From: Cordilura impudica
Taxonomy: Eukaryota > Arthropoda > Insecta > Diptera > Scathophagidae
Length of the DNA stretch: 64,000 bases
Direction: 5' to 3'
Assembly: GCA_963682025.1 (NCBI GenBank)
Contig: OY821521.1
Location: forward strand, 98,020,854-98,084,853
Of the stretch, positions 11,836-63,130 are shown one piece after another (within the stretch, counting starts at the first letter, position 1; the number at the start of each line of letters is the position of its first letter). Below the pieces are notes generated by a model. That model made no database searches. It was not told the DNA's origin and saw only the letters and a program-made list of their open reading frames with translations. The position numbers and the translations under genes were made by a program.

Positions 11836-13557
11836 TAAACAAATATTGTTGTAGTTTACAATGTGTTCTCATAATCAACGTCACATACGTACGTTATGAG
11901 TACCATGGACATTGTGAGTACCGAGTTTCATATCGTTAAGAAAACGTTATCTTTGTGTAATAATATGAGCACAGTTGCATAGCAAAAAATTATTTTAAAA
12001 TTATTGGAATCATCAGAAAATAAGCCAAAGCTTAATTGAATATATAATACCCTATTAACATATTTTTTTTATTAATAGAATAATTTTCTTATATAAAATT
12101 CTATTAATACAATGCTATATATAATTACTTAATTTATTTTGTAAATTTAAAAATAAAGTTCAAGAAAAATAAATTTACAAAATCCACGTTGCTTACTGAT
12201 ATAATTGTCATTAAAAATTATTTATTTAATTTTTTATCCATTACTGGGTGAATTAATAAGTCTTTTACTTATCAGAAGATAACTATTGAGCTTTTAAAGA
12301 TATCAAGCTTTGCAACAAATAAAAATATTGCATAAAAGTGGTGTGAAGATATTGGAGTTGGTCAAAATTTCCTTTCTTTTGAGTACCCTCACTTAATATT
12401 TAGAAACAGCTGCAATTTTCTGCTCGAATTTTTATCCTAGGTGCTTTTGAAAGATTTTAAGTTGGAATTGCTAAATTAAAATTGTCCACACAAAAAGGAT
12501 TATCCTCAAAATTTTTATATCGCCTAAAATTTGTTGTTTTTTTTTAATTCACGATATACAAAATTTTGAATGATTCAAACAAGTCTGTTTAAAGTGCTCA
12601 AAGACAAGTTAAACGATAAGAAGGGTGTATTATTTCGAACTGTAGTTTTATGAACGTCCTTTGAGAATGTTATTTTAGAAGGTCCCAATAGCAATAACAT
12701 CTGAACCACAATAGCCTCAACGTTTTAACATTAAGTCACAAAAAAACATTTCAAATTTATTTTCTAAAACGCAATAACTTCTTTAATGTACAAATTCTAA
12801 AGAACATACGACGCACAACATGTTTTAGGATCACTAAATAAGAAAAAAATATAATCGATCAAGCAGAAAATTGTAGAACTATACCTCCATGAAGAAATCA
12901 ACAAAGTATTTTAATACTCTTAATAAACTCAAATCAATCTTTTGTAATTGCAACTATTGCGCAGCAAACTCTAATGGAATCGAACCCATTAACACAATTT
13001 CTATTAAGTGTGTGAACATTTTCAAAGTATAACAATAAAAAAAAAACGACAATGACATCAAAAACAAAACATCTTTAACTCGTATATAAGTATGTATTAG
13101 TTTTGAAAGAGACTTAAGAGTTTGAAAAAAATACTCGTATGCACAACATTGTCATAATCGACTTATATAGCAAGGTTTAGAAAATACACACAACAAACAC
13201 ACAATGTTCTGTCCTAAAGCAGCCAAACAATATTTTTATTTTCATATCAACTATGTTTGTTTCTAAATTTTGAACGGTGCCGAACGCAATCATGACTGTT
13301 TTTCGTTTTAATATTTCGTTAACTACACGAACATTTTTTTATCACGTATTTTTTTTTCGAACACACATAAACCACACAGATTCAAGTGTATCTTTATTTT
13401 TAGTTCGTCTTCTTGCACGTGTACTGCTAAAAAACAGAACATATTTTTGAACGCGTACATCTAACAATTAAAACATTATCCACTCGCGATCGGAAAAAAC
13501 GAAACTAAGTCATAAACAACATAAAGAGTTTCTCTGTTTTCTAATTTATTACTATCT
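11836..13557. other. Low-repeat region, no gene recognised
   Basis: AT-rich sequence with no supported ORF. The segment 13150-13500 is less repetitive than its surroundings (contains cacgtgtactgct and several hexamers resembling untranslated or promoter DNA) and could hold an upstream non-coding exon or control region of the minus-strand host gene; this is only a suggestion. Confidence 0.35.
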
Positions 13558-14327
13558 ATATACCCTATACCACTATGTGGTTTGGGTATAATGACTTTGT
13601 GCTGCTGTTTGTAACAACCAAAAATATTTGACCTAGACCCATCTTTAATTATACCGATCGAATCAGAATCACTTTCTGAGTTGATTTAACAATGTCCGTC
13701 CGTCTGTGTGTCCATGTAAAGCTTGTAATCAAACTGCAGGTCGCAAATATGAATGTATTTTGATGAAATTTGGTATATAAGCTTTTATTGGCCATGGGAT
13801 GAACGCTATTGAAATTGGTGACAATCGGTCCATGTTCAGACCTAGCCCCCATACAAATTACCCATATGAAATCGACATAAATTGCCATAAGATCCAAATT
13901 GTCATATAGATCTTACTCAAATTGGGTTTGTGTGCGTTCATTACATCCACTAATGAGTAGTCCAAAAATGATCCCTTTGACCCCATATAGAGCTGTTTCC
14001 CGATCTTCAGTTAAATCTATTAAAAAACAAAAATATTGCACTGATTCTCCTCAAATTTTGTTTGTACATATTTTTGCAAAATACAAGAGACTTTACCAAA
14101 CATGATCAGGATCGGTCCATTTTTGGACCTAGTCCCTTTACAGATATAGCATCCGATATGAACTTTTTCATATCTGCAGCCAAAAAAATTAATAAAAATC
14201 GCACTCAAATTTGGTTTATGCTTATTTTCTATATCGAAGTAGTTGGACCGAAAGATAGGGTCTCTAAACCATGGTATAGGGTATCATATAGTCGGTCTAG
14301 ACCGACTATAATTTTCTTACTTGTTTT
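13558..14327 (+). mobile_element. Helentron-like repeat (HINE), copy D, full length
   Basis: This is the cleanest reference copy. 5' end TATACCCTATACCACTATG; hairpin 'cgaatcagaatcactttctg'; a reduced GTCC microsatellite at 13694; 3' subterminal TGGTATAGGGTATC; perfect palindrome TAGTCGGTCTAGACCGACTA at about 14289-14308; tail ATTTTCTTACTTGTTTT. The inverted pair ATACCCTATACCA / TGGTATAGGGTAT near the two ends fits the subterminal inverted repeats described for Helentron-associated elements. ORFs at 13649 (-), 13899, 14020 (-) and 14062 are repeat sequence read by chance and recur in other copies. Confidence 0.8.
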
Positions 14328-14437
14328 ATATTATTTTTTTTTATTTTTATTATTATCTTTTTATTTTTTTATAACTGATAATGAATTATTTTAGATTTTA
14401 TTAATAAATTTGCTTGAAACAATTGTTGTCGTTATTA

Positions 14438-31623: not shown

Positions 31624-32790
31624 GTGCTGAAGAGCATGTGATCGACAGTATGGCTTCCGTAGAAATCGTTCCACGGGAGACCGATCCATTCAGAATTCTG
31701 GCGAAAGTAAAGTGGTTGTTCCAGATATTTCCAAGGCATTCGATCGCGTGTGGCACGCTGCTTTGATATCAAAGCCTATTGCATTTGGGGTCGGTGATGA
31801 CTTCTCTCGATTTATATCGAGTTTTCTCAGAGACCGAACAACACGTGTTGCTATCAATGGGGTCTCATCTAATGAGTTTCAGCTTAATTCAGGGGTACCC
31901 CAAGGTTCCATTCTTTCTCCTTCTATTTTCCTTATCTTTCTGAACGACCTTCTTGGTCAAAGTTTTAATTCTATATACTCTTTCGCAGTTGACAGCAGCA
32001 TTTGTCATTCATTTTCCCTTATTTGTAGGCCAAGCCTCTTGGAGGCTGGGGGCAAAAGGCGGACAATGAATGACACACTCAATCAAGATCTGTTAACAAT
32101 CTCCGAGTGGGGTAAAACGAATAGGGTTATATGTTGTATGTTGAATCATAGGGCCATGGATTCAACAATGTCATCTGTATATATAGATGGTATAGGTATC
32201 AAGGAATCGGATACTCTTGATGTTCTAGGCATGAGAATTTAATGTGATGTTCGTTGGAACGAGCATGTTTTTCAAGTGTCGAAAGAAGCATCCAAGTGTT
32301 TTGGTTTTCTAAAACGATGCAAAAATTACTTCTCTCTTTCTGATCTCCTTAAAATCGGTACCATATATGGGCAGGAGCTTCAAAGTCTATTTTAGTGCTA
32401 CCGGACCGTGTGCAAAGGAGGGCGTTGGCGCTCATCAATTATAGTAGGGTATCCAACTCTATTGACTTATTGTGTAGCAGTGTTCTATAGATACTATGGG
32501 AAATGTTCTTGTGAGATTAGCGAACTTATTTCAAGTGTCCGAGTTTCAGTTCAGTCAACCCACTTCTCTAGTAGATCACATCCGCTTGTAATCTATTGTC
32601 CAGTTGACCGCACAACGCATTACAGAGAACTAGCCGTATGGGGAATAAATTCCCCGCACAGGTATTTCCTGACAGTTATAATCTAATAAAATTAAGTCAA
32701 ATATCCGCAAACACAACTCCCTCGTTCCTCCAATTCACATTCCTTGAGTGTTGGTCAATAATTAAAAAGAAATGTTTCAGGTGTTTCAGA
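31624..32790 (+). pseudogene. LINE reverse transcriptase relic (jockey/CR1-like)
   Basis: Reads DRQYGFRRNRSTGD (RT motif around 31641), then after a deletion VVPDISKAFDRVWHAALI (motif A, catalytic Asp in DISKAF), NSGVPQGSILSPSIFLIFLN (motif B), SFAVDSSICHSF (motif C) and SDTLDVLGMRI. Frameshifted continuation WNEHVFQVSKEASKCFGFLK, then RTTHYRELAVWG and YNLIKLSQISANTTPS follows to about 32790. In motif C the normal F-A-D-D is F-A-V-D: GTT at 31988-31990 replaces the first catalytic Asp codon. Part of the finger region is deleted between STGD and VVPD. It is dead and truncated at its 5' end. The open stretches 31712-32242 and 32408-32686 belong to it. Confidence 0.85.
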
Positions 32791-33732: not shown

Positions 33733-34005
33733 TTTTTGGAGCTTTGTTAGATATAAAATTAATAATTTCTCAACATATTACTATGACAGCTAATAAAGCT
33801 CAAGCGTTGGGACAGAAAATTTTGCGATCCAATCATAGCAAAACAATTGTATACATCACTTGTCAGACCGATTTTGGAATACGGTTCTGTTGTTTGGGAT
33901 CCAAATTACGTCGTTCATAGCGATCACATTGACTCTGTTCAATAACAATTTTTACTGTTCTGCTTTTGAAATCTATATCCAAATCCTTCTATTAATCTGC
34001 CGTCG
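33733..34005 (+). pseudogene. LINE ORF2 C-terminal part, left of Transib insertion
   Basis: Encodes GALLDIKLIISQHITMTANK (family: GVLLDxKLxFxxHI), then in another frame LYTSLVRPILEYGSVVWDPN and YVVHSDHIDSVQ, then NPSINLPS. These are conserved blocks downstream of the RT palm in jockey-type LINEs. The text breaks at the Transib left end and resumes in frame at 37643, so this was an already decayed LINE when Transib inserted. Confidence 0.8.
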
Positions 34006-34041
34006 CACAGTGGACCATATTTTGAGAAGGCGGCCAAAAAT
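34006..34041 (+). repeat. Transib left terminal repeat with RSS-like layout
   Basis: CACAGTG at 34006-34012 is identical to the consensus V(D)J recombination-signal heptamer. 23 nt follow, then AAAAAT. About 31 of the first 36 bases are shared with the right end in reverse. Confidence 0.85.
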
Positions 34042-34515
34042 CATTTTTTTTTGTTACCGATTTTAAAGTTATGCTATTCATTTGAAAGTAAATATTAGTA
34101 AGCCTCGGGAGCCAAAAAATTGCGACTCTATCTCAACTATCTCACAGCGAACAGGGTCTTCGAATAATGGGATTTCTCAGTATTTTGCTAAAATTAAAAA
34201 TTTCTTTGTAAATTTTTATTTTTGAATGACTGTAACTTTTTTGATTTAAAAGATTTTGAAGTGAAATAAATTTTGTATAATTTTGTGAGTCATTCCGAAA
34301 TTTAAAAAAAAAAATTTTTTAAAAAAGGTCCAAATTTTCCGAAAATCTCCTACTTAATAGAGCATAACTCCTGCCATTCAAAAGCAGTCAGAAAAAATCC
34401 TGCACTCTGCTATAGTCCGAACCCTCCCCTATACCCCTTTATACACCCACCAATTTCCGCCCGTGTGCACCAGAACAATTTTTTTGACTCAAGGTTAGAT
34501 ATTTTCTGAAAAAAT

Positions 34516-34696
34516 TTATGAATACAAAAGTTATCCACTATGTGGTTAGGATATATTAAGTTTGAGGTGATGTTTGTAACTGCCAAAAATATTGGACCTT
34601 TATCCATCTTTTATTATACGGATCGACTCAAAAACACTTTCTGAGTCGATTAAACGATGTCCGTCCGTCCGTCTGAGTGTTATGAATACAAAAGTT
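34516..34696 (+). mobile_element. HINE fragment flanked by a 17-bp direct repeat inside Transib
   Basis: TTATGAATACAAAAGTT occurs at 34516-34532 and again at 34680-34696. The 147 bp between them is a HINE 5' part ('atccactatgtggttagg', 'aactgccaaaaatattgg', the perfect hairpin 'atcgactcaaaaacactttctg', then GTCCGTCCGTCC). The duplication could be a target-site or template-switch product. It shows that this HINE piece arrived after Transib. Confidence 0.65.
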
Positions 34697-34904
34697 GGTC
34701 GTACCGGTGCACCTCGGTGTATTTTTTTGCGTGCCGGTAGAGTTGTCAGGAGTTGTTGTATACTTATAAAAAAGGGTTGAGATATAATGCGCTTAATTGT
34801 TACAGGTACATTTACATAGGTATCTTTCAAAAACAATAATAGTCTGAATTAGAGTTATATAGTTTAAATACCTGACAAAATGGGAAACAATTTAAATAAC
34901 AGGT

Positions 34905-35146
34905 AAATGGTAAAAAAAAAAACTATTGCGACATAGCCCTTTAAGATATGACCAGGTATGCTTCACCTTTTAAAAGGGATTAGGGTGTGGGTTTTTTATG
35001 CTTCTAAAAGTGGTAATAAAAGACAAAAATTTGTAAATGGTGAAAAAAACTATTGCGACATAGCCCTTTAAGATATGAGCAGGTATGCTTCACCTTTTAA
35101 AAGAGGTTAGGGTGTGGGTTTTTTATGCTTCTAAAAGATAAAAATT
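34905..35146. repeat. Tandem duplication, 129-bp unit, in Transib 5' region
   Basis: Units start at 34905 and 35034 with taaatggt, then 'aactattgcgacatagccct' and 'aggtatgcttcacctttt'. The second unit is slightly shorter. Located between the left end and the transposase start. Confidence 0.8.
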
Positions 35147-35184
35147 TTTATTTTACATAATTGCAAGAAAGAGTATTTATAATA

Positions 35185-36977
35185 ATGTTTCCACAATTAT
35201 TATTCATTACAATTTGTGCAATGGCTAAGTACTGTTACAGAGATCTGGCAGATATTTATTTTCAACTAAATGATGCAGACGATGTAATTTTGCACATAGT
35301 GAGCAACGACTTCTTTAAGAATTGTAACCTAGAAGACATTGAAATGCACAAAGGAAAAATTACTAATTTTGCATCGAATTTGAAAAGACGGTACATTGAA
35401 TGCTCTCATAGCAAGGCAAAGATGTACAAACGTTACCAAGACTGGTTAATAAAGGAACTTATTTTTGAGAGTGCATCTACAACTGCCAACGAAAGTGGAA
35501 AGAAGGGTCGGCAAGCAAAACCAATTGACGGATGTAGTGAAACATCTCGAAGGCGCAAGCTGGAGAATATCAATGAAGAAATTTCTCAAAGTATTATTAA
35601 GGATTTATTTTTGCACCAAATACAACCAACCCAAAATAAAAAAAAATAAAATTGAAACAATTGAAAAAATAGTAGAAGCGAGCCCAAGGCGTTCGCCCTA
35701 TTTTTGGATTTGAAATTGACCAAAAATCAATATAAGGAATTGCGGAAGCGAACCAATGAAAAGAATTGTGGGATTTTTCCAGAGTATCGAGATTTAGTTT
35801 CTGCCAAAAAAGAATGCTTACCTTCACAATCTGCTATTAGTGTCACTTCAACATCAGCAGAAATAAAATTGCAAGATCTCCTTGAACATACTGCAGAACG
35901 AATGGGGATGTGATGGATCCTCTGGTCAGAAACAATACAAGCAATTTAATGCCGAAAATTCATCAGATGCTAATTTATTTATGGTATCTTTCGTTCCATT
36001 GCGCTTAACAAAAAGGTATAGCGTCTTAGAGCCGTCAACTAGTAGAGCAACAGAAATTGATATATGGAAAAATGAAATTCCTTCTTCAACAAAGTATTGC
36101 AGACCAATAAAATATGCATTCAAAAAGGAAACCAACGATGCCATAACTGAAGAAGTTCAAAAAATAAAAGATCAAATTAAGGAACTTCAACCAGTGTCCC
36201 ACAATGATTGATGGAAAAGTTGCACAAGCTTTAACTGGAACAAAGTCAACGCCAAGCTGCATTATATGCCAAAGGACATCATGTCAATTAAGTCAACCCC
36301 CACCAGAAGACATTTGGTCCGTTAGGCGAAACAGTGAGAAAAAACAAAGAAAATGAAGAAAAAGGAAAGAAAAAAAAAACCAAATTCAACAAAAATATCT
36401 ACAGCTAGGCCTCATAATCGGCCAACCAAAACTAGGGGAAGGAAACACAAATGATGGAAATACTACAAGGAGATTTTTTTCCGATCCCGAAACTGCAGCA
36501 TCTATCACAGGTGTAGATCACGAATTAATAAGACGATTCAAAATCATATTACAATTTCTAGCATATAGCAGAAAGATAAATGCAATAAAATTTGGAGAGT
36601 ACGCCAATAAAACAGCTATACTTTATAATGAAAAATACTCTTGGAGATATATACCATCCACAGTTCATAAAATTTTGTACCATGGGGAACAAATAATTCA
36701 AAACAATATGCTACCAATAGGAGATCCATCTGAAGAAGCGCAAGAAAAATGGAACAAAGACTACAGATTCTTTCGCAAGCACAACACAAGGAAAATGTCC
36801 AGATGTTGTACTAATGACGATCTTATCACTATTTTGTTGGGCACTTCAGATCCATATATGTCCAACATTCGTCAAAAATGGAAAACTACCTCTATTGAAT
36901 TGGACGAAGAAGCTAAACAACTTCTAGAAGATGAAAATCAAGGCTATTTAGAAGAAATTTTTACTAAAATTGGTTGA
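35185..36977 (+). pseudogene. Transib transposase (RAG1-core-like), decayed
   Basis: The reading frame is broken into pieces: an N-terminal piece (first ATG at 35185, stop after 35649) with Lys/Arg-rich text; 35704-35913 with LDLKLTKNQYKELRKRTNE and a LQDLLEHTAER block; 35882-36211 with WGCDGSSGQKQYKQF (GAT at 35912-35914, the position of the first catalytic Asp of the Transib/RAG1 core) and FMVSFVPLRL; then MIDGKVAQALTGTKS with a CIICQ zinc-type pair; DPETAASITGVDHELIRRF; and 36675-36977 with HGEQIIQNNMLPIGDPSEEA, QEKWNKDYRFFRKHNTRK and TSDPYMSNIRQ. These blocks in this order are typical of Transib; the last aligns with the RAG1 region that carries the third acidic residue (probable Glu codon 36744-36746, inferred). 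Frameshifts and at least one deletion near 35650-35700 make it non-functional. A Transib transposase would nick and hairpin DNA at the CACARTG ends. Confidence 0.88.
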
Positions 36978-37606
36978 TTTAAAGTATTTTTTCATTACAC
37001 TAACAATAAGTTACACCTTTTTTTATATAGTTAAAAAATTTTCTTGATTTAAAAATTTATATATTTTGTAAATTTACAATAAAAATTGTTATATTTCATA
37101 AATTTACCATAAAAATTGATATAGAAATATTTAAAAAGACAATAAAAAAAAGTTTATCTAAAGCAAAAACATACGAGTTTTTCATTGAAACTTCTCTATC
37201 TTGAACCAATATAAGGTAACTTTTACGTTCGCTGCTTAATAAATTATATTTTAACTCGGGATCTTTCAAAAAAAAAACAACCTTTGGCCCTTGTGCACAT
37301 TAGGACTAAAAAGTTTACGGGGGCCATTTTCTGAAAAAATTAACTTAAAAAATTTTTAAAATGTATTAGTTGTAAAATTAACTGAAAAAATAAGACATTA
37401 TATTAAAAAAAAAACCTTTTTTTACCTTTTAACACTTCACTTTTGTACTAAAATTCAACTACAAATGAAAATGTATTTTAAACCCTCCGTAACTTTTTTT
37501 ATTTTCGGTTGAGAATTACGTTTAATAGCAAAACTTAAAGGCTAAAGTCTCACCTGCCAAACAAAGAAAACGCATATCGAAATTCCAATCCAATCAAAAG
37601 TTACAT

Positions 37607-37642
37607 ATTTTTGACCGCCTTCTCGTCAAATGGTCCATTGTG
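37607..37642 (-). repeat. Transib right terminal repeat
   Basis: Reversed it reads CACAATG, GACCATTTGACGAGAAGG, then CGGTC and AAAAAT, with the same 23-nt spacing as the left end. The heptamer differs from the left by one base (A for G at position 5), matching the Transib consensus CACWATG. Confidence 0.85.
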
Positions 37643-38010
37643 CGTCGTATAGTTCAAGGTTAGCTCAAATCAAATTGCCTTAAAAAGCCGGAGAAAAATG
37701 CTAAGTGTGACATTTCTAATGAAACTAATAAATGGCGACGTATGCTCTGAGTTCGTGCTGAACAATATTGCTTTTAATGTTCCTCAACGTCCGACCTGCT
37801 ACTTCAATCCTTTGCCCATCCAGTATTTCCGCTCAAACTACGCAAATGCAGATGCGTTCAGAAGATTATATGAGAATTTTAATGATCTTAAACGTAATAT
37901 AATTTTGTTTTTAAATACCTAGTTTTAAATACTATTGTACATTTTTGTATACGTATATTATAAAGTTTGAAAGGATTTAATCCATAGACTAAAATAAATT
38001 TAAAAAAATC
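37643..38010 (+). pseudogene. LINE ORF2 C-terminus, right of Transib insertion
   Basis: Resumes the interrupted LINE (SYSSRLAQIKLP), then 37698-37922 encodes LSVTFLMKLINGDVCSEFVL, NNIAFNVPQRPTCYFNPLPI and NYANADAFRRLYENFNDL, the standard C-terminal blocks of jockey-type LINEs, up to a stop at 37920-37922. A likely 3' tail 'aataaatttaaaaaaat' lies at about 37993-38009. Confidence 0.8.
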
Positions 38011-45317: not shown

Positions 45318-47796
45318 TTAACCCTTTCCTATCTGACGGTACTAATAAGTACCACCTTTTGTAACGGTAAATTTAACAAACATGAGATCGCAGCAGCTTA
45401 CGCTCTGCTTCAATATCTATTCTAAAACAATTGAGCTGTCTAACAAAAAAAATTGTCTTGAAAAAAAGTTAAAAATTGCTAATTAGTATCACATTGAACT
45501 TGGAACTTGAAGGTGCATTGTTAAGAAAAAAATTCCCATTTTTCATTGCAATATATATATAGATTTTACAAGGCAAGTTATATTTTTTTTTATACATAAT
45601 AAGTTAGCAACCTGTTGTTAACTGTTTTTATTATGTTAAATGTATTTTATACGTTTTATGTGCATAAAATCTGCAAAAAACAGTTAGGGACTTACAAGTA
45701 CCGACAGTGACTTTAAGCATTTTTTGAGTTCTGTTTTTTTATATGTATATTTTTGCAATGTTTGCTTTTTAGATGGATATTTCTAAAAATATTGAGCTAA
45801 TAGAAGCATTATTGATCGAGGATATCCCAGAATGCGATTCTGCGTCAGATGTGGAATTATCTGATGATGAAAATGACATTCATCAACCCTCAATAAGTAT
45901 CGATGAACTTCTTGATGAAGCAGTACAAGAATCTATTTACACATTGGAAGCTGAAAATAAAGCAGACGATGAACCTCCTGAAGCTGCAACTTCTTCTACG
46001 AGTTTACAATCTTCCAAAACAACCACTGGTAAGTCATCGCAGTCGAACAAAAGAGTTCCAGAACCTGATCGGAAATGGAAAAAACGCGATGTTGAGACAT
46101 ACTTACCAGAATACTCTGAAAACACTTCTGTCGTGGAGGAATGTTTCTGTAAATGCTCTACGCCTACGGATGTATTTTTGGTTATAATTGATACTATTCT
46201 TGATGATGTTGTTTATCAAAGCAATTTGTATGCCATCCAAAATAACAAGACTCTCAACCTCAAGAAAGAAGAGCTTTTGGCTTTTATTGGCATTAACTTT
46301 TTTATGGGCTACAATACTCGTCCTGCTTGGACTGATCACTACTCTTCTGCTCCGGATCTTCACAACCCACTTATAAGTACGACAATACCAAGAGATAGAT
46401 TTGCCGCTATATTGTCAAACTTACACTGTAATGACAATTCTAAAATACAACCCAATTGTAAGGACAAGTTATGTAAGATGAGACCTGTATTAGACAAGCT
46501 AAACCGAAAATTTGATGAGTGTTATCATGGAACCAGAGAATTGAGTGTAGATGAATCTATGATAAAATTTAAGGGTAGGTCTGTACTCAAACAATATCTG
46601 CCCATGAAACCTATAAAAAGAGGGTACAAGCTATGGTGCTTAGCTGATCAGAGAGGTTTTATAAAAAAAATTATTGTATACCAGGGAAAAGACGATAAAA
46701 TCAGCGCAAAGTTTTCTGAATATACTTTAGGGGAAAGAGTAGTATTGGAGTTGACTAAACAAGAATGGGGAGAAGAAAAAGTTATATACTTTGACAATTT
46801 CTTCTCCTCTCTTTCTTTACTCGAAAAGTTAAAAAGTGAAAAAACTTTTGGATGCGGCACAATAAGGTCAAACCGTAAGGGCATTCCCAGTAATATGGTA
46901 ATCGACTCCAAACTAAAAAGAGGAGAGTATGATCACAGATTTTCAGATTTGAATATTGGCTACTGGAAGTGGAAAGATAACAAAATAGTTCATTTTGTTT
47001 CAAATCTTCACGGCAGTGAAGAAACTACCGTTTTACGAAAGCAGAAGAATGGAACCAAGTCTACGGTTAGTTGTCCTAAGTCTGTAAAGGATTATAACGT
47101 ATATATGGGAGGTGTTGACACCGCTGATCGATTGAGAGCTCTCTATTGCGTTGACCGTAAATCGCCTAAATGGTGGCATAGGATATTTTGGGGTGTGCTA
47201 GATATCGCTTTTGTAAATGCTTATATTGTACATGGACTTATAATTGAAAAATCTACAGTCAAAGATTTTAGAAGATCAGTAGCCCAAGGTTTAATGGCTT
47301 TGAAAGATGTGGGTAAGAAAAAACGAACACCAAAAGACAATGTTTCAAGTCCTTGTTCGAACAAAAGGCGCAAAATAGACTTCTCTACATTGAAAGATGT
47401 AAGGCTTGGTAACAGAGGCATTCATTGGGCAGTGTTTGTCGAAAGAAGGGGAAGATGTGAGGTATGTAGCATGAAGAAGGTACAATCCAAGCCTCATTCC
47501 AAGTGCTCTCACTGTGATGTGATTTTATGCCTGAACGAAAAGAAAAACTGTTTTGCTGAATATCACGAGGCAAATAATAAGCGTTTTTTAAATAATGCCT
47601 TTAATTTTTATTTTTTTCATCTGTGACATTAATAGACTGACGGTACTTATAAGTCTAGGTCCTAAAAGTAATACTAAGAATAAAAATAAAAAATTTAAAA
47701 AATCAGTAATTAGTTTCATTTATAATGTGTATTCATAATAATAAAGAAAAATTAATAGTTTTTGACTCTACGTCATAGCCGGTAGGAAAGGGTTAA
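45318..47796 (+). mobile_element. piggyBac-like transposon, structurally complete
   Basis: TTAA at 45318-45321 and 47793-47796 flank a 2471-bp element whose ends match in reverse for 11 of the first 12 bases (CCCTTTCCTATC and CCCTTTCCTACC). Inner inverted motifs are also present: GGGACTTACAAGTACCGACA at 45687 against the reversed TGACGGTACTTATAAGTC at 47638, and a palindrome GGTACTAATAAGTACC right after the left end (45339-45354). TTAA duplication, 3-C start and an uninterrupted transposase are hallmarks of piggyBac. The complete ends and ORF suggest recent insertion and possible activity. Confidence 0.93.
45773..47626 (+). CDS. piggyBac-like transposase, intact
   Basis: 617 codons without interruption. 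Layout: acidic N-terminus (residues 1-65, EDIPECDSASDVELSDDEN), Ser/Thr linker, then the DDE_Tnp_1_7 core. The three catalytic Asp are visible: D260 in LSVDESMIKFKGRS, D341 in VIYFDNFFSSLSLL, D449 in YMGGVDTADRLRALY; their spacing is close to that of Trichoplusia piggyBac. The C-terminus has a Cys-rich zinc-binding domain (CEVCSMKK, HSKCSHCDVILC, NCFAEYH, from residue ~563) used for end binding, preceded by a basic stretch KKKRTPK and NKRRKID that can serve as nuclear signal. It would excise and insert the element at TTAA without footprint. The ATG lies immediately after 'tgtttgctttttag', a good splice acceptor, so an upstream non-coding exon is possible. AATAAA signals follow the stop (47677, 47749). 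Only this protein in the window looks functional. Confidence 0.95.
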   Translation: MDISKNIELIEALLIEDIPECDSASDVELSDDENDIHQPSISIDELLDEAVQESIYTLEAENKADDEPPEAATSSTSLQSSKTTTGKSSQSNKRVPEPDRKWKKRDVETYLPEYSENTSVVEECFCKCSTPTDVFLVIIDTILDDVVYQSNLYAIQNNKTLNLKKEELLAFIGINFFMGYNTRPAWTDHYSSAPDLHNPLISTTIPRDRFAAILSNLHCNDNSKIQPNCKDKLCKMRPVLDKLNRKFDECYHGTRELSVDESMIKFKGRSVLKQYLPMKPIKRGYKLWCLADQRGFIKKIIVYQGKDDKISAKFSEYTLGERVVLELTKQEWGEEKVIYFDNFFSSLSLLEKLKSEKTFGCGTIRSNRKGIPSNMVIDSKLKRGEYDHRFSDLNIGYWKWKDNKIVHFVSNLHGSEETTVLRKQKNGTKSTVSCPKSVKDYNVYMGGVDTADRLRALYCVDRKSPKWWHRIFWGVLDIAFVNAYIVHGLIIEKSTVKDFRRSVAQGLMALKDVGKKKRTPKDNVSSPCSNKRRKIDFSTLKDVRLGNRGIHWAVFVERRGRCEVCSMKKVQSKPHSKCSHCDVILCLNEKKNCFAEYHEANNKRFLNNAFNFYFFHL

Positions 47797-49330: not shown

Positions 49331-50356
49331 ATGGCAGATTGTCAGCGAAGAAAGATTGAATAAATTGAGTTCCTCCTAGGATAAATTTAGGCTTCAGAGA
49401 AATAATCTCTTAGAAAACGATATACAGCGACGTCAACACTGATTCTGAATAAAAGCATCTCCAATGGAGTATACGCATACTTATTATTACAACTGTTAGT
49501 ACTACTAGAATAATATACTTATTTTTATTTTTTTATAAAAGAATAAAGCCGTCTATGTTTTATTTTCAGCTTGGTTTACATTTTTTTAGTTAAGATTAAG
49601 AAAGTATTTTGAATGTCACAAAATGTCTTGAAAACTAGTTCTTTTTTTCAGAATCGTATTTTTTACTTTTTTCTTCTTTTTTTTATTATAGCAACGTCAT
49701 CACTTTATTAAAATCCTTAAAGTGATGCCCTTTCGTGGAAAATTTTCAAAATTTTTAACGTAAAACTTTAAAAGTAACTGATTGCTTTCAGAAAAATATG
49801 AAACCTTAAAACAAACTTTAATTTTTTCATTATTCAAATGATAATTTTTGAAAAATTTTATCTAAATAATTAAAAACACAATTTTTATTTTAAATATCTC
49901 AAATATCTTTACATATAGTGATTTTCGTGTATTTTTGCAGAAATTCTATTATACCTTAAGGGGGCGGGGGGTAAAGTTTTTAAAGCGAAAAAAGGCGTAT
50001 TTCATATTTTTTTTTAAGATATGAATAATGTTGGACTATTTATTTCATATACACGATATAGTATAACTTTTGAGGTATGTCTGAAAAAATTTTCAAGTAA
50101 AAATATTAATAAAAAAGTTCGTGACAGCGAATCTTCGGAGGCGTTGTGGTTTTGCGGTGAACATAATAACTCGCTACCGGATCATGTGAAATAAAAAAAT
50201 CGAAATGCGTTTAAAAGGTGACATGTTTCCCGATGAAATCACGAAGAGTTTTTTATTTTTTTTTTTTTTTTGCCAGCATATTAAAGTGAATAACACGGTT
50301 TTTGCTCTAAAATTTCGGTGAATTTGTTGTTAAAAATGGGAAAGAAAATGGAAACT
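49331..50356. other. No gene recognised
   Basis: AT-rich, homopolymer-rich. A short G-rich run 'gggggcggggggtaaagt' occurs at 49961-49978. No ORF supported. Confidence 0.35.
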
Positions 50357-51168
50357 AAAAACAAGTAAGAAAATTACAGTCGGTCTAGCCCGACTATGCG
50401 ATACCCTATACCATGGTTTAGAGACCATATCTCTTCGGTCCAACTAATTGGATATAGCAAATAAGCATAAACCAAATTTGAGTGGCATTTTTATTAATTT
50501 TTTTCGCTGCAGATATGAAAAAGTTCATATCGGATACTATATTTATATGGGGCTACGTCGAAAAATTGACCGATCCTGACCATATTTGGTAAAGTCACTT
50601 ATACTTTGAAAAAATATATACAAACCAAATTTGAGAAAAATCTGTGCAATATTTTTGTTTTTTGATAGATTTAAGTGAAGATCGGGAAGCAGCTCTATAT
50701 GGGGCCTATGACTAAGAATTTTCCTATAGGGATTGTCTTTGAACTACTGATTAATGGATGTAATAAACAAATACAAACCCAATTTGACTGAGATCTATAT
50801 GATAATTTGGAACTTATGGCAATTTATGTCGATTTCATAGGGGTCATTTGTATGAGGACTAGGACTGAACATGGACCGATTCTCAACAATTTCAATAGCG
50901 TTCATCTCTTGGCTGATGAAGGCTTATGTATCATCATCAAATTATGTTCATATTTGCGACCTGTAGTTTGATTACAAGGTTTACATGAACACACAGACGG
51001 ACGGACAGACGGTCGGACGGACGGACGGACATTGCTATTTCGACTCAAAAAGTGATTCTGAGTCGATCGGTATAATTAAAGATGGGTCTAGGACGAATAT
51101 TTTTGGTTGTTACAAACAGCAGCACAAAGTCATTATACCCAAACCACATAGTGGTATAGGGTATAAAA
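50357..51168 (-). mobile_element. Helentron-like repeat (HINE), copy I, full length
   Basis: Complete inverted copy: ACAAGTAAGAAAATTACAGT, palindrome AGTCGGTCTAGCCCGACT (one mismatch), GATACCCTATACCA at one end; GTGGTATAGGGTATAAAAAC at the other; hairpin 'tcgactcaaaaagtgattctgagtcga' and a (GGAC)n microsatellite at 50997-51031. About 812 bp, close in length to copy B. Confidence 0.8.
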
Positions 51169-60470: not shown

Positions 60471-60574
60471 TACAGTGACTGGAGGGCGCACGACTTGGAA
60501 CTGATTTTGGTCTTAGTCATGTACTTTTTTTTTAACTGTTTATTCAAACTGTTGTTTTCAGGCAACTTAAGGCG

Positions 60575-62282
60575 CACAGTGGACCATTTGACGAGAAGGC
60601 GGTCAAAAATCTATAACTTTTGATTGGATTGGAATTTTGATATGAGATTTTTTGTTTGGTAGGTGAGACTTTAGCCTTTAAGTTTTGCTATAAAACGTAA
60701 TTCTCACCGAAAATAAAAAAAGTTACGGAGGGTTTAAAATACATTTTCATTTGTAGTTGAATTTTAGTACAAAAGTGAAGTGTTAAAAGGTAAAAAAGGG
60801 TTTTTTTTTAATATAATGTCTTATTTTTTCAGTTAATTTTATAACTAATACTTTTTAACAATTTTCTAAGTTAATTTTTTCAGAAAATGCCAAACTTTGG
60901 CCCCCGTAAACTTTTTAGTCCTAATGTGCACAAGGGCCAAAGGTTGTTTTTTTTTAAAGATCCCGAGTTAAAATATAATTTATTAAGCAAAGCAGCGAAC
61001 GTAAAAGTTACCTTATATTGGTTCCAGATAGAGAAGTTTCATTGAAAAACACGTATGTTTTTGCTTTAGTTAAATTTTTTTTTATTGTCTTTTTAAATAT
61101 TTCTATATCAATTTTTATGGTAAATTTATGAAATATAACAATTTTTATTGTAAATTTACAAAATATATAAATTTTTAAATCAAGAAAATTTTTTAACCAT
61201 ATAAAAAAAAGTGTAACTTATTGTTAGTGTAATGAAAAAGTACTTTAAATCAACCAATTTTAGTAAAAATTTCTTCTAAATAGCCTTGATTTTAATCTTC
61301 TAGAAGTTGTTTAGCTTCTTCGTCTAATTCAATAGAGGTAGTTTTCCATTTTTGACGAATGTTGACATATATGGATCTGAAGTGCACAACAAAATAGTGA
61401 TAAGATCTTCATTAGTACAACATCTGGACATTTTCCTTGTGTTGTGCTCGCGAAGGAATCTGTAGTCTTTGTTCCTTTTTTCTTGCGCTTCTTCAGATAG
61501 ATCTCCAATTGGTAGCATATTGTTTTGAATTATTTGTTCCCCATGGTACAAAATTTTATGAACTGTGGATGGCATATATCTCCAAGAATATTTTTCATTA
61601 TAAATTATAGCTGTTTTATTGGCGTACTCTCCAATTTTTTTTGCATTTATATTTCTGCTGCATGCTAGCACTTGTAATATGATTTTGAATATTCTTATTA
61701 ATTCATGATCTACACCTGTGATAGCTGCTGCAGTTTCCGGATCGGAAAAAATCTCCTTGCAGTATTTCCATCATTTGTGTTTCCTTCCCCTTGTTTTGGT
61801 TGGTCGATTACGAGGCCTAGCTGTAGATATTTTTGTTGAATTTGTTTTTTTTTTTGCTTTCTTTTTTCTTAATTTTCTTTGTTTTTTCTCACTGTTTCGC
61901 CTAACGGACCAAATTCCATATCATAACCCAATGATCAGTACCAAGCGTATTTAGCAATCGTTCTGCAGTATGTTCAAGGAGATCTTGCAATTTTATTTCT
62001 GCTGATGTTGAAGTGACACTAATAGCAGATTGTGAAGGTAAGCATTCTTTTTTGGCAGAAACTAAATCTCGATACTCTGGAAAAATCCCACAATTCCTTT
62101 CATTGGTTCGCTTCCGCAATTCCTTATATTGATTTTTGGTCAATTTCAAATCCAAAAATAGGGCGAACGCTTCTTCAGGCGGAAATTTCTTTTCTTCTAT
62201 TGGTGTAGGAATGCTTTTCAAAATCCTCTTTGTGTGCCTTGGGCTCGCTTCTACTATTTTTCAATTATTTCAATTTTATTTT
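60575..62282 (-). mobile_element. Transib DNA transposon, copy 2, 5'-truncated
   Basis: The element's 3' end lies at 60575 (CACAGTGGACCATTTGACGA on the plus strand, preceded by AGGCG, a plausible GC-rich target sequence). The heptamer is CACAGTG and the A-rich AAAAAT block again follows after 23 nt. Reading leftwards in the gene sense, it carries about 665 bp of non-coding 3' sequence, then the C-terminal part of the transposase. The 5' half is cut off at about 62282, where the mini-me-like 2 repeat begins. Compared with copy 1 it has kept a piece near 62150-62230 that copy 1 lost, but lacks the region from about 35912 to 36310 of copy 1. Confidence 0.85.
61255..62255 (-). pseudogene. Transib transposase fragment, copy 2
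   Basis: Minus strand: 62221-61901 encodes KSIPTPIEEKKFPPEEAFAL, LKLTKNQYKELRKRTNERNC and LQDLLEHTAERLLNTLG, then jumps by an internal deletion to the VRRNSEKK-like basic stretch. 61671-61324 encodes IGEYANKTAIIYNEKYSWRY, HKILYHGEQIIQNNMLPIGD, SEEAQEKRNKDYRFLREHNT and ILLCTSDPYMS, followed by a frame change. The first catalytic Asp block (WGCDGSSG in copy 1) and the MIDGK/CIICQ block are deleted. It closely resembles copy 1, so both derive from the same family; it is inactive. Confidence 0.85.
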
Positions 62283-63130
62283 TATACCCTCCACTCCAGT
62301 GTGCAGAGGGTATATATAAGTTTGTCATTCCGTTTGTAATAATTAGAAAAAAAATTCTGGACCCCATAATATATATATATTTGTGATCCTTATAACAAGC
62401 GAAGTTGATATAACGATGTCCGTCTGTCCGTCTGTCCGTCTGTCCGGCTGTCCGTCTGTCCGTCTGTCCGTCTGTCCGTCTGTGGAAATCACGATGACGG
62501 CTTCAATCGGATAGCTAGGGTGCTCCTTGGTATAAAAAATGATTCACTAACATCCTGAGAAGTTTGCTATTTAAAATCGTCCAAATCGGTTAATCTGGTC
62601 CCGAGAATTGAGCGAAGAATTAAAAAGTCATGAGAAAATATGATTTGAATATGTGTTCTTGTGATAACGCCCTCAATAGGGCAGATAGGGCGCTTGTTTT
62701 TAGTGAGAATGATTCACTAACATCTTGAAAAGGTTCCTGTTTTTAAATCATGACAATAGGTTTCATAGGTGTCGAGAAATCACTGAAAAGGTAAAAAAAA
62801 ATATGACGTTTTCCTATATTGTTTTCCTAAATTTTGTATTTTGTCATAGCTGTGCATGTTGTTTTTGTGGTCGTTGTGTTAATAATATAAAAATTCATCA
62901 ATATCAATATTTTTTGGTGTAATATTTAAGTTAATTAATTAATAAAAGAAACTATATAAAATCAATATCAATATTCTGCGATTTTTATAACATCACAAAA
63001 TGTTACAAATTGATACATACTACTGTTGCCAACATCAAAATACTATAAATAATATTCATATATTCTGTATATGTATATCCATAATAAGCGCATATTAAAA
63101 TAAATCGGTATTTTATTTTATTTTTACAAA
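62283..63130 (+). mobile_element. Second microsatellite-bearing family (mini-me-like 2), copy 2
   Basis: 5' hairpin end ATACCCTCCACTCCAGTGTG-CAGAGGGTATATATAAG; 'aattagaaaaaaaattctgg'; (GTCCGTCT)n microsatellite at about 62419-62480 with about fifteen GTCY repeats; then two diverged internal repeats with 'gaatgattcactaacatc' (62535, 62707); and a right part shared in reverse with 28225-28330. Its insertion truncates Transib copy 2. Non-coding; the ORF at 62725 is chance. Confidence 0.7.

Follow-up and report, generated by a model that had tools for sequence, protein, structure and literature searches.

A Transib element in a window of 64,000 nucleotides (nt) of the Cordilura impudica genome (GCA_963682025.1, contig OY821521.1, positions 98,020,854 to 98,084,853) raises the question of whether a fly lineage of these transposons carries, at one end only, the exact heptamer of the recombination signal sequence (RSS) of V(D)J recombination. 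The element occupies positions 34006 to 37642 of the window and has CGTCG at either flank, at 34001-34005 and 37643-37647, as the left and right copies of a target-site duplication. Its left terminal inverted repeat (34006-34041, + strand, 36 nt) begins with the heptamer CACAGTG at 34006-34012, and its right terminal inverted repeat (37607-37642, - strand) begins, read inward from 37642, with CACAATG. The two arms form an inverted repeat that is complementary at 83% across 41 nt, duplication counted in. All of the heptamer letters given by the initial annotation, as well as its CGTCG duplication, were present at these positions. The proposal that an exact RSS heptamer at a single end is a trait of the lineage did not survive comparison with other copies, which carry CACAGTG at both ends.

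The first DNA search of the 1.49-Gb genome scored the best 40 matches of 352 candidates. Left ends of the window family (family A) carried CACAGTG in 29 of 30 cases, the window's own included, and CACTGTG in 1 case. Right ends, the window's own left out, carried CACAGTG in 36 of 39 cases, with one instance each of CACAATG, CCCAGTG, and CGCAGTG; since the right-end query itself carried CACAATG, this selection was biased against the CACAGTG majority. The family end motif with CACAGTG (a pattern of 28 positions, including 5 free) had 4,134 exact occurrences genome-wide (2,108 + 2,026), a number that counts exact ends and not elements, and the reversed-pattern control had 0 occurrences genome-wide, which puts the end pattern far beyond chance. 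With CACAATG, the same motif occurred 50 times genome-wide (25 + 25, window included). These 50 ends read as 21 left-type, 21 right-type, and 8 TTCAC-type, and because they are spread over all three types, the CACAATG change arose in many places. Given the genome-wide counts, the CACAATG at the right end of the window element is a private, sporadic mutation, and CACAGTG is ancestral at both ends of the window family, which answers the check on genomic copies that the initial annotation had suggested. The reading of the window element as a damaged copy of an abundant Transib whose family heptamer is CACAGTG at both ends, with CACAATG as a sporadic change, is assigned a probability of about 94%.

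Left and right ends of the family differ in the middle of the repeat. Positions 14 to 18 (34019-34023, + strand) read ATTTT in left ends and TTGAC in right ends, forms that accounted for 37 and 50, respectively, of the 100 CACAGTG ends listed for the genome. The same 100 ends contained 22 convergent pairs, all composed of a left and a right end, 2.5 to 8.9 kb apart. Left and right repeats were identical at positions 1 to 13 and 19 to 36, except position 29, and unlike at positions 14, 16, 17, and 18. This arrangement of two shared outer blocks around an end-specific middle suggests bipartite recognition, with two putative contact blocks for the transposase. In a subfamily (L090-L093) whose repeats read TTCAC in their middle part, sequences were mostly 82 to 85% identical to the right part of the window copy, and one 53-nt piece was 91% identical. 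This subfamily contributed 6 of the first 100 CACAGTG ends listed (all on contig C1) and 8 of the 50 CACAATG ends, and by extrapolation it too would be overwhelmingly CACAGTG if the listed share holds genome-wide; L090-L093 were picked from CACAGTG matches, and their heptamer is given by construction.

When the flanks of the window element were rejoined with a single CGTCG, one frame was open for 23 codons through the junction. No Pfam match was obtained for the flanking pieces as such, and a Pfam match to reverse transcriptase was found upstream of the element at 31631-32242, because of which the insertion target looks like a degraded, older non-long-terminal-repeat (non-LTR) retrotransposon that was interrupted by the Transib. 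The open joined frame and the retrotransposon context therefore support the element boundaries. Among the 17 copies with both ends located, the 5-bp duplications were identical in 10 and one letter off in 5. Right flanks were exactly CGNCG in 27 of 39 cases, in agreement with the CGNCG-like target named in the initial annotation and with the preferred Transib target as given in passages of PMC4735498 and in a table of PMC5704228.

Several observations weigh against this account of the window element and its family. The samples of 30 left and 39 right ends consist of best-scoring matches, which favors well-kept ends. Right-end heptamers were altered in 6 of the 17 copies that were chosen by their left ends, so the top-hit samples flatter the ends; the 6 altered heptamers differ between copies, and the only CACAATG among them is the window's own. 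The remaining 2 of the 17 copies had no convincing duplication (more than one letter off), and the window junction is placed by the duplication plus a short reading frame. The longest open transposase stretch was 337 amino acids (aa) in 21 copies (20 fetched copies and the window's), and for this reason none of the 21 copies scanned looks intact; the window copy is broken. A right end was located in 17 of the 21 copies, 16 of these being fetched copies and one the window's, and none was found within about 6 kb for L031, L035, L042, and L050. L079 and L080 have the same flanks and probably represent a single insertion that was duplicated. Heptamer changes in the 17 right ends amounted to 10 of 119 letters, versus 7 of 390 at positions 8 to 30; because only ends whose middle was almost unchanged had been selected, no conclusion on excess heptamer mutation is drawn from this difference.

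CACAGTG was not confined to the window family. With a distant Transib (P0012) as protein query, the same genome gave 40,004 first-look candidates, 81 of which were scored as places, and many of these places contained open frames of about 700 aa without stops. From them, 16 elements were examined (6 returned loci and 10 picked because their match spans differed), and the ends of 12, which fall into five families, were resolved; the elements whose ends were not resolved were L096, L099, L108/L109, and L116/L117. The end finder demanded CAC (CA in one run) and at least 4 of 5 duplication letters, and one element of family F (F1) was read by motif instead; the CAC of these heptamers is thus conditioned, and positions 4 to 7 are not. 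Family B (L094, L095, and L118) had CACAGTG at both the left and the right end. Family C (L097, L098, and L114) had CACAGTG at the left and CACACAG at the right end, family D (2 copies) had CACAGAG at the left and CACAGTG at the right end, and families E and F (2 copies each) both had CACATTG at the left and CACAGTG at the right end. The 5-bp duplications matched in 11 of the 12 resolved elements, as the finder required, and were mismatched in F1 (GCGCG versus CGGCG).

Genome-wide counts with heptamer positions 5 and 6 left free were made for families B and D, and the evidence for families C, E, and F comes from 3, 2, and 2 copies, respectively. Ends of family B were CACAGTG in 33 of 33 cases. 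Right ends of family D were CACAGTG in 24 of 25 cases and CACATTG in 1, and its left ends were CACAGAG in 23 of 28 cases and CACATTG in 5. Across the six families, the window's included, CACAGTG was present at 8 of 12 family ends; CACA (positions 1 to 4, with CAC by condition) and GG (positions 7 and 8) were invariant, and positions 5 and 6 varied. The transposases of families A, B, and C were 43 to 45% identical (about 44% for A and B). The exact RSS heptamer is accordingly not specific to the window family and recurs in deeply diverged families of the same genome, and it is probably widespread among these Transibs and old. Rarity of the heptamer was not supported, as each of the five other resolved families carried it, one of them at both ends and four at a single end opposite a different heptamer. 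A tentative extension is that CACAGTG is ancestral across a wide range of insect Transibs and that several lineages independently fixed one-sided CACACAG, CACAGAG, or CACATTG, giving stable unequal pairs. One-sided changes were observed in families C to F, with genome-wide support for family D only, and we regard this extension as possible but rather doubtful.

The genome holds at least five further Transib families (e.g., L094, L097, L098, and L100-L123). Copies L097 to L099 were 99% identical, and near-identical copies together with the many open frames, each about 700 aa long, make recent activity of further Transib families likely. L096 and L108/L109 represent a further Transib lineage, with a protein 65% identical to that of family C; their ends were not found.

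The spacing between heptamer and A-rich block was assessed against the RSS nonamer consensus ACAAAAACC, as stated in a passage of PMC8289069. The A-run of ACAAAAACC starts at its third base. The distance of 23 nt from heptamer to AAAAAT reported by the initial annotation was confirmed literally at both ends of the window element, but not as a spacer in the RSS sense, as the nonamer register fits best at 21 nt. The best nonamer-like stretch, CCAAAAATC (34034-34042, + strand), lies 21 nt past the heptamer and matches ACAAAAACC at 7 of 9 positions. When ACAAAAACC was slid along the left and the majority right family ends, a spacer of 21 gave 7/9 at both, and a spacer of 23 gave 4/9. The right end of the window copy itself reads TCAAAAATA, which by eye matches at 6/9 with a spacer of 21. 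These nonamer scores are raw match counts, with no chance expectation attached. Measured against a vertebrate-type 23-RSS, the exact heptamer was found at the left end and as the family state at both ends, but not at the right end of the window copy, and the nonamer did not lie at a 23-nt spacer. The 21/21 spacing of the window family agrees with the symmetric spacers of 20 to 22 nt shown for Transibs in a figure legend of PMC8355894.

A further reading takes heptamer, spacer, and A-rich block as jointly homologous to a vertebrate RSS. In its favor, families A and B share CACAGTG and a YCAAAA-type block, with best spacers of 21 (7/9) and 23 (6/9), respectively, and the right end of family C reaches 7/9 at a spacer of 11. 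Against this, the best spacings in families C to F were 10, 11, 12, 24, and 28, with 5 to 7 of 9 matches, so spacing is not fixed among the Transibs of one genome. Further, at position 30-31, 7 of 8 ends of families C to F carried GATTAA in place of this block, and runs of A are frequent in DNA as AT-rich as this (26.8 to 34.7% GC in 4-kb bins). Joint homology of the whole signal is thus unlikely. Family B (L094, L095, and L118/L119) has a CCAAAA block in nonamer register at spacer 23 (6/9), and in L094 the repeats were identical at 36 of 36 positions.

The initial annotation had read the locus as a stable Transib lineage with an exact RSS heptamer at one end and CACAATG at the other. The two ends of the single window copy do differ in this way, and a one-sided pattern with other letters occurs in families C to F of the same genome. 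For the window family, however, the right-end sample and the genome-wide end counts refute a stable asymmetry of CACAGTG and CACAATG, the right end of a second copy of the same family in the window is CACAGTG, and this reading is now highly improbable. The second copy lies at 60575-62283 (- strand), lacks its left part, and is flanked by AGGCG at 60570-60574; it was missed in the initial annotation.

The transposase of the window element is broken into pieces. An N-terminal piece (35161-35649, + strand) contains a basic GRxAK motif and may resemble the nonamer-binding region of RAG1. It is followed by a small piece (35704-35913), a piece with the first catalytic aspartate in WGCDGSSGQ (35882-36211, + strand), a piece with the second catalytic aspartate in MIDGKV (36204-36356, + strand), and a C-terminal piece with the catalytic glutamate in SEEAQEKWNKD (36357-36977, + strand). 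Part of the region after the second-aspartate piece is missing in the window copy relative to a sister copy. In PDB searches, the first-aspartate piece matched the HzTransib structure 6pqn (E = 5.7e-15), and positions 36393 to 36977 matched it over about 160 aa (E = 2.6e-45, 157.5 bits); the pieces at 35161-35649 and 36204-36356 each had no PDB match of their own. The first catalytic aspartate and the glutamate align with the 6pqn chain, and the second aspartate is placed by the MIDGKV motif common to relatives only, all in broken frames. A protein search with the open stretch of a sister copy as query returned 283 homologues at E ≤ 1e-5, 120 of which were listed, and all 13 proteins that were aligned had glutamate at the position of the catalytic one, which the window piece retains as well. 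The DDE (aspartate, aspartate, glutamate) residues of HzTransib are given in a passage of PMC6941560 as D126, D225, and E436, and the numbering of the chain appears to differ from the published one by an offset of 17.

By its sequence features, namely transposase homology, DDE residues, terminal inverted repeats starting with CAC, and a 5-bp CGNCG-like duplication, the element is assigned to the Transib superfamily, as the initial annotation had it, with RAG1 matching far more weakly than HzTransib. A RAG-like (RAGL) transposon of the ProtoRAG type, with a RAG1-like protein nearer to RAG1 than to Transib and a RAG2-like partner, is highly improbable. It is favored by a weak match of the C-terminal piece to the Pfam RAG1 profile (E = 0.0016), which falls below the curated cut-off. 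Against it, the best RAG1 chain for 36393-36977 reached 20.3 bits (E = 0.0031) in the same PDB search, and no RAG2-type Pfam match was found in the pieces scanned, which cover the RAG2-like part only partly, with the short open reading frames elsewhere in the element outside the scan.

Two further features lie inside the element. The segment at 34532-34676 (+ strand) is common to other repeats of the window (about 831-1651, 13551-14332, and 50356-51167) and is carried inside the Transib. A 95-nt direct repeat is present as two copies 127 nt apart (34916-35137, + strand), with more units in family members L003 and L008. Elsewhere in the window, an open piggyBac transposase frame of 617 aa was found at 45773-47626 (+ strand; DDE_Tnp_1_7, E = 4.1e-83). 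Its best relatives were 68% identical, the four best named ones were from Lepidoptera, and it is possibly a recent arrival.

Mobilization of the family may be modeled on HzTransib, for which a passage of PMC6941560 describes a hairpin on the flank and a blunt signal end. The family transposase would bind both inverted repeats and nick at the 5' edge of CACAGTG. Hairpins would then be made on the flanks, and the blunt ends would be joined to target DNA of the CGNCG type, in which the two cuts would be staggered by 5 bp. The anatomy of the element was observed directly; cleavage, hairpin formation, and joining are inferred from published HzTransib and RAG work.

HzTransib, from Helicoverpa zea, belongs to the same superfamily as the window element, is similar in size (3,518 bp), and also makes a 5-bp duplication (passage of PMC1852546), reported as GCTCG in contrast to CGTCG in the window. 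It is a studied, active element (passage of PMC6941560), whereas the window copy is broken. Transibs of Drosophila and Anopheles have CAC-type ends, 5-bp duplications, and in many cases symmetric spacers of 20 to 22 nt, and heptamers and nonamers that equal those of the RSS are described for some Transib ends (passages of PMC8355894 and PMC6941560). RSS-identical Transib heptamers and the CGNCG target are therefore already known from the literature; a limited literature search on Transib heptamers and targets found no table of Transib ends. The 12/23 asymmetry that these passages describe for a few Drosophila and Anopheles Transibs is absent from the window family (21/21), which is a different family from theirs.

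The best named homologue among the matches listed was a 202-aa hypothetical protein of the moth Eumeta japonica (EVAR_71786_1, P0004), 87% identical over 65% of the query (200 aa). In a quick tree of 60 proteins, it was sister to the window family with a Shimodaira-Hasegawa-like approximate likelihood ratio test (SH-aLRT) value of 96. The likeness to a moth protein is only a hint of possible horizontal transfer. Neither viral_contigs nor genome_contigs yielded relatives when each was scanned once with alignment A1. The likeness to the vertebrate RSS and RAG1 lies in the exact heptamer CACAGTG as a family state and in the weak RAG1 match; unlike the vertebrate system, the family lacks a 12/23 pair and an exact nonamer, and no RAG2-like partner was seen in the pieces scanned.

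An attractive reading is thereby corrected, in which one mutated copy mimicked a natural asymmetry of the RSS heptamer. This family normally carries the exact RSS heptamer, which is also common in the other Transib families resolved here, and the CACAGTG counts fit the accepted view in which Transib-type ends gave rise to RSS heptamers. The genome contains six or more Transib families, and some of these have long open transposase frames. The ends of these families vary in heptamer, spacing, and distal block, and they form a natural series for the DNA-end requirements of a RAG-type recombinase. If the fixation of unequal heptamers proves true, unequal RSS partners would have an evolutionary antecedent in such stable pairs, predating any 12/23 rule.

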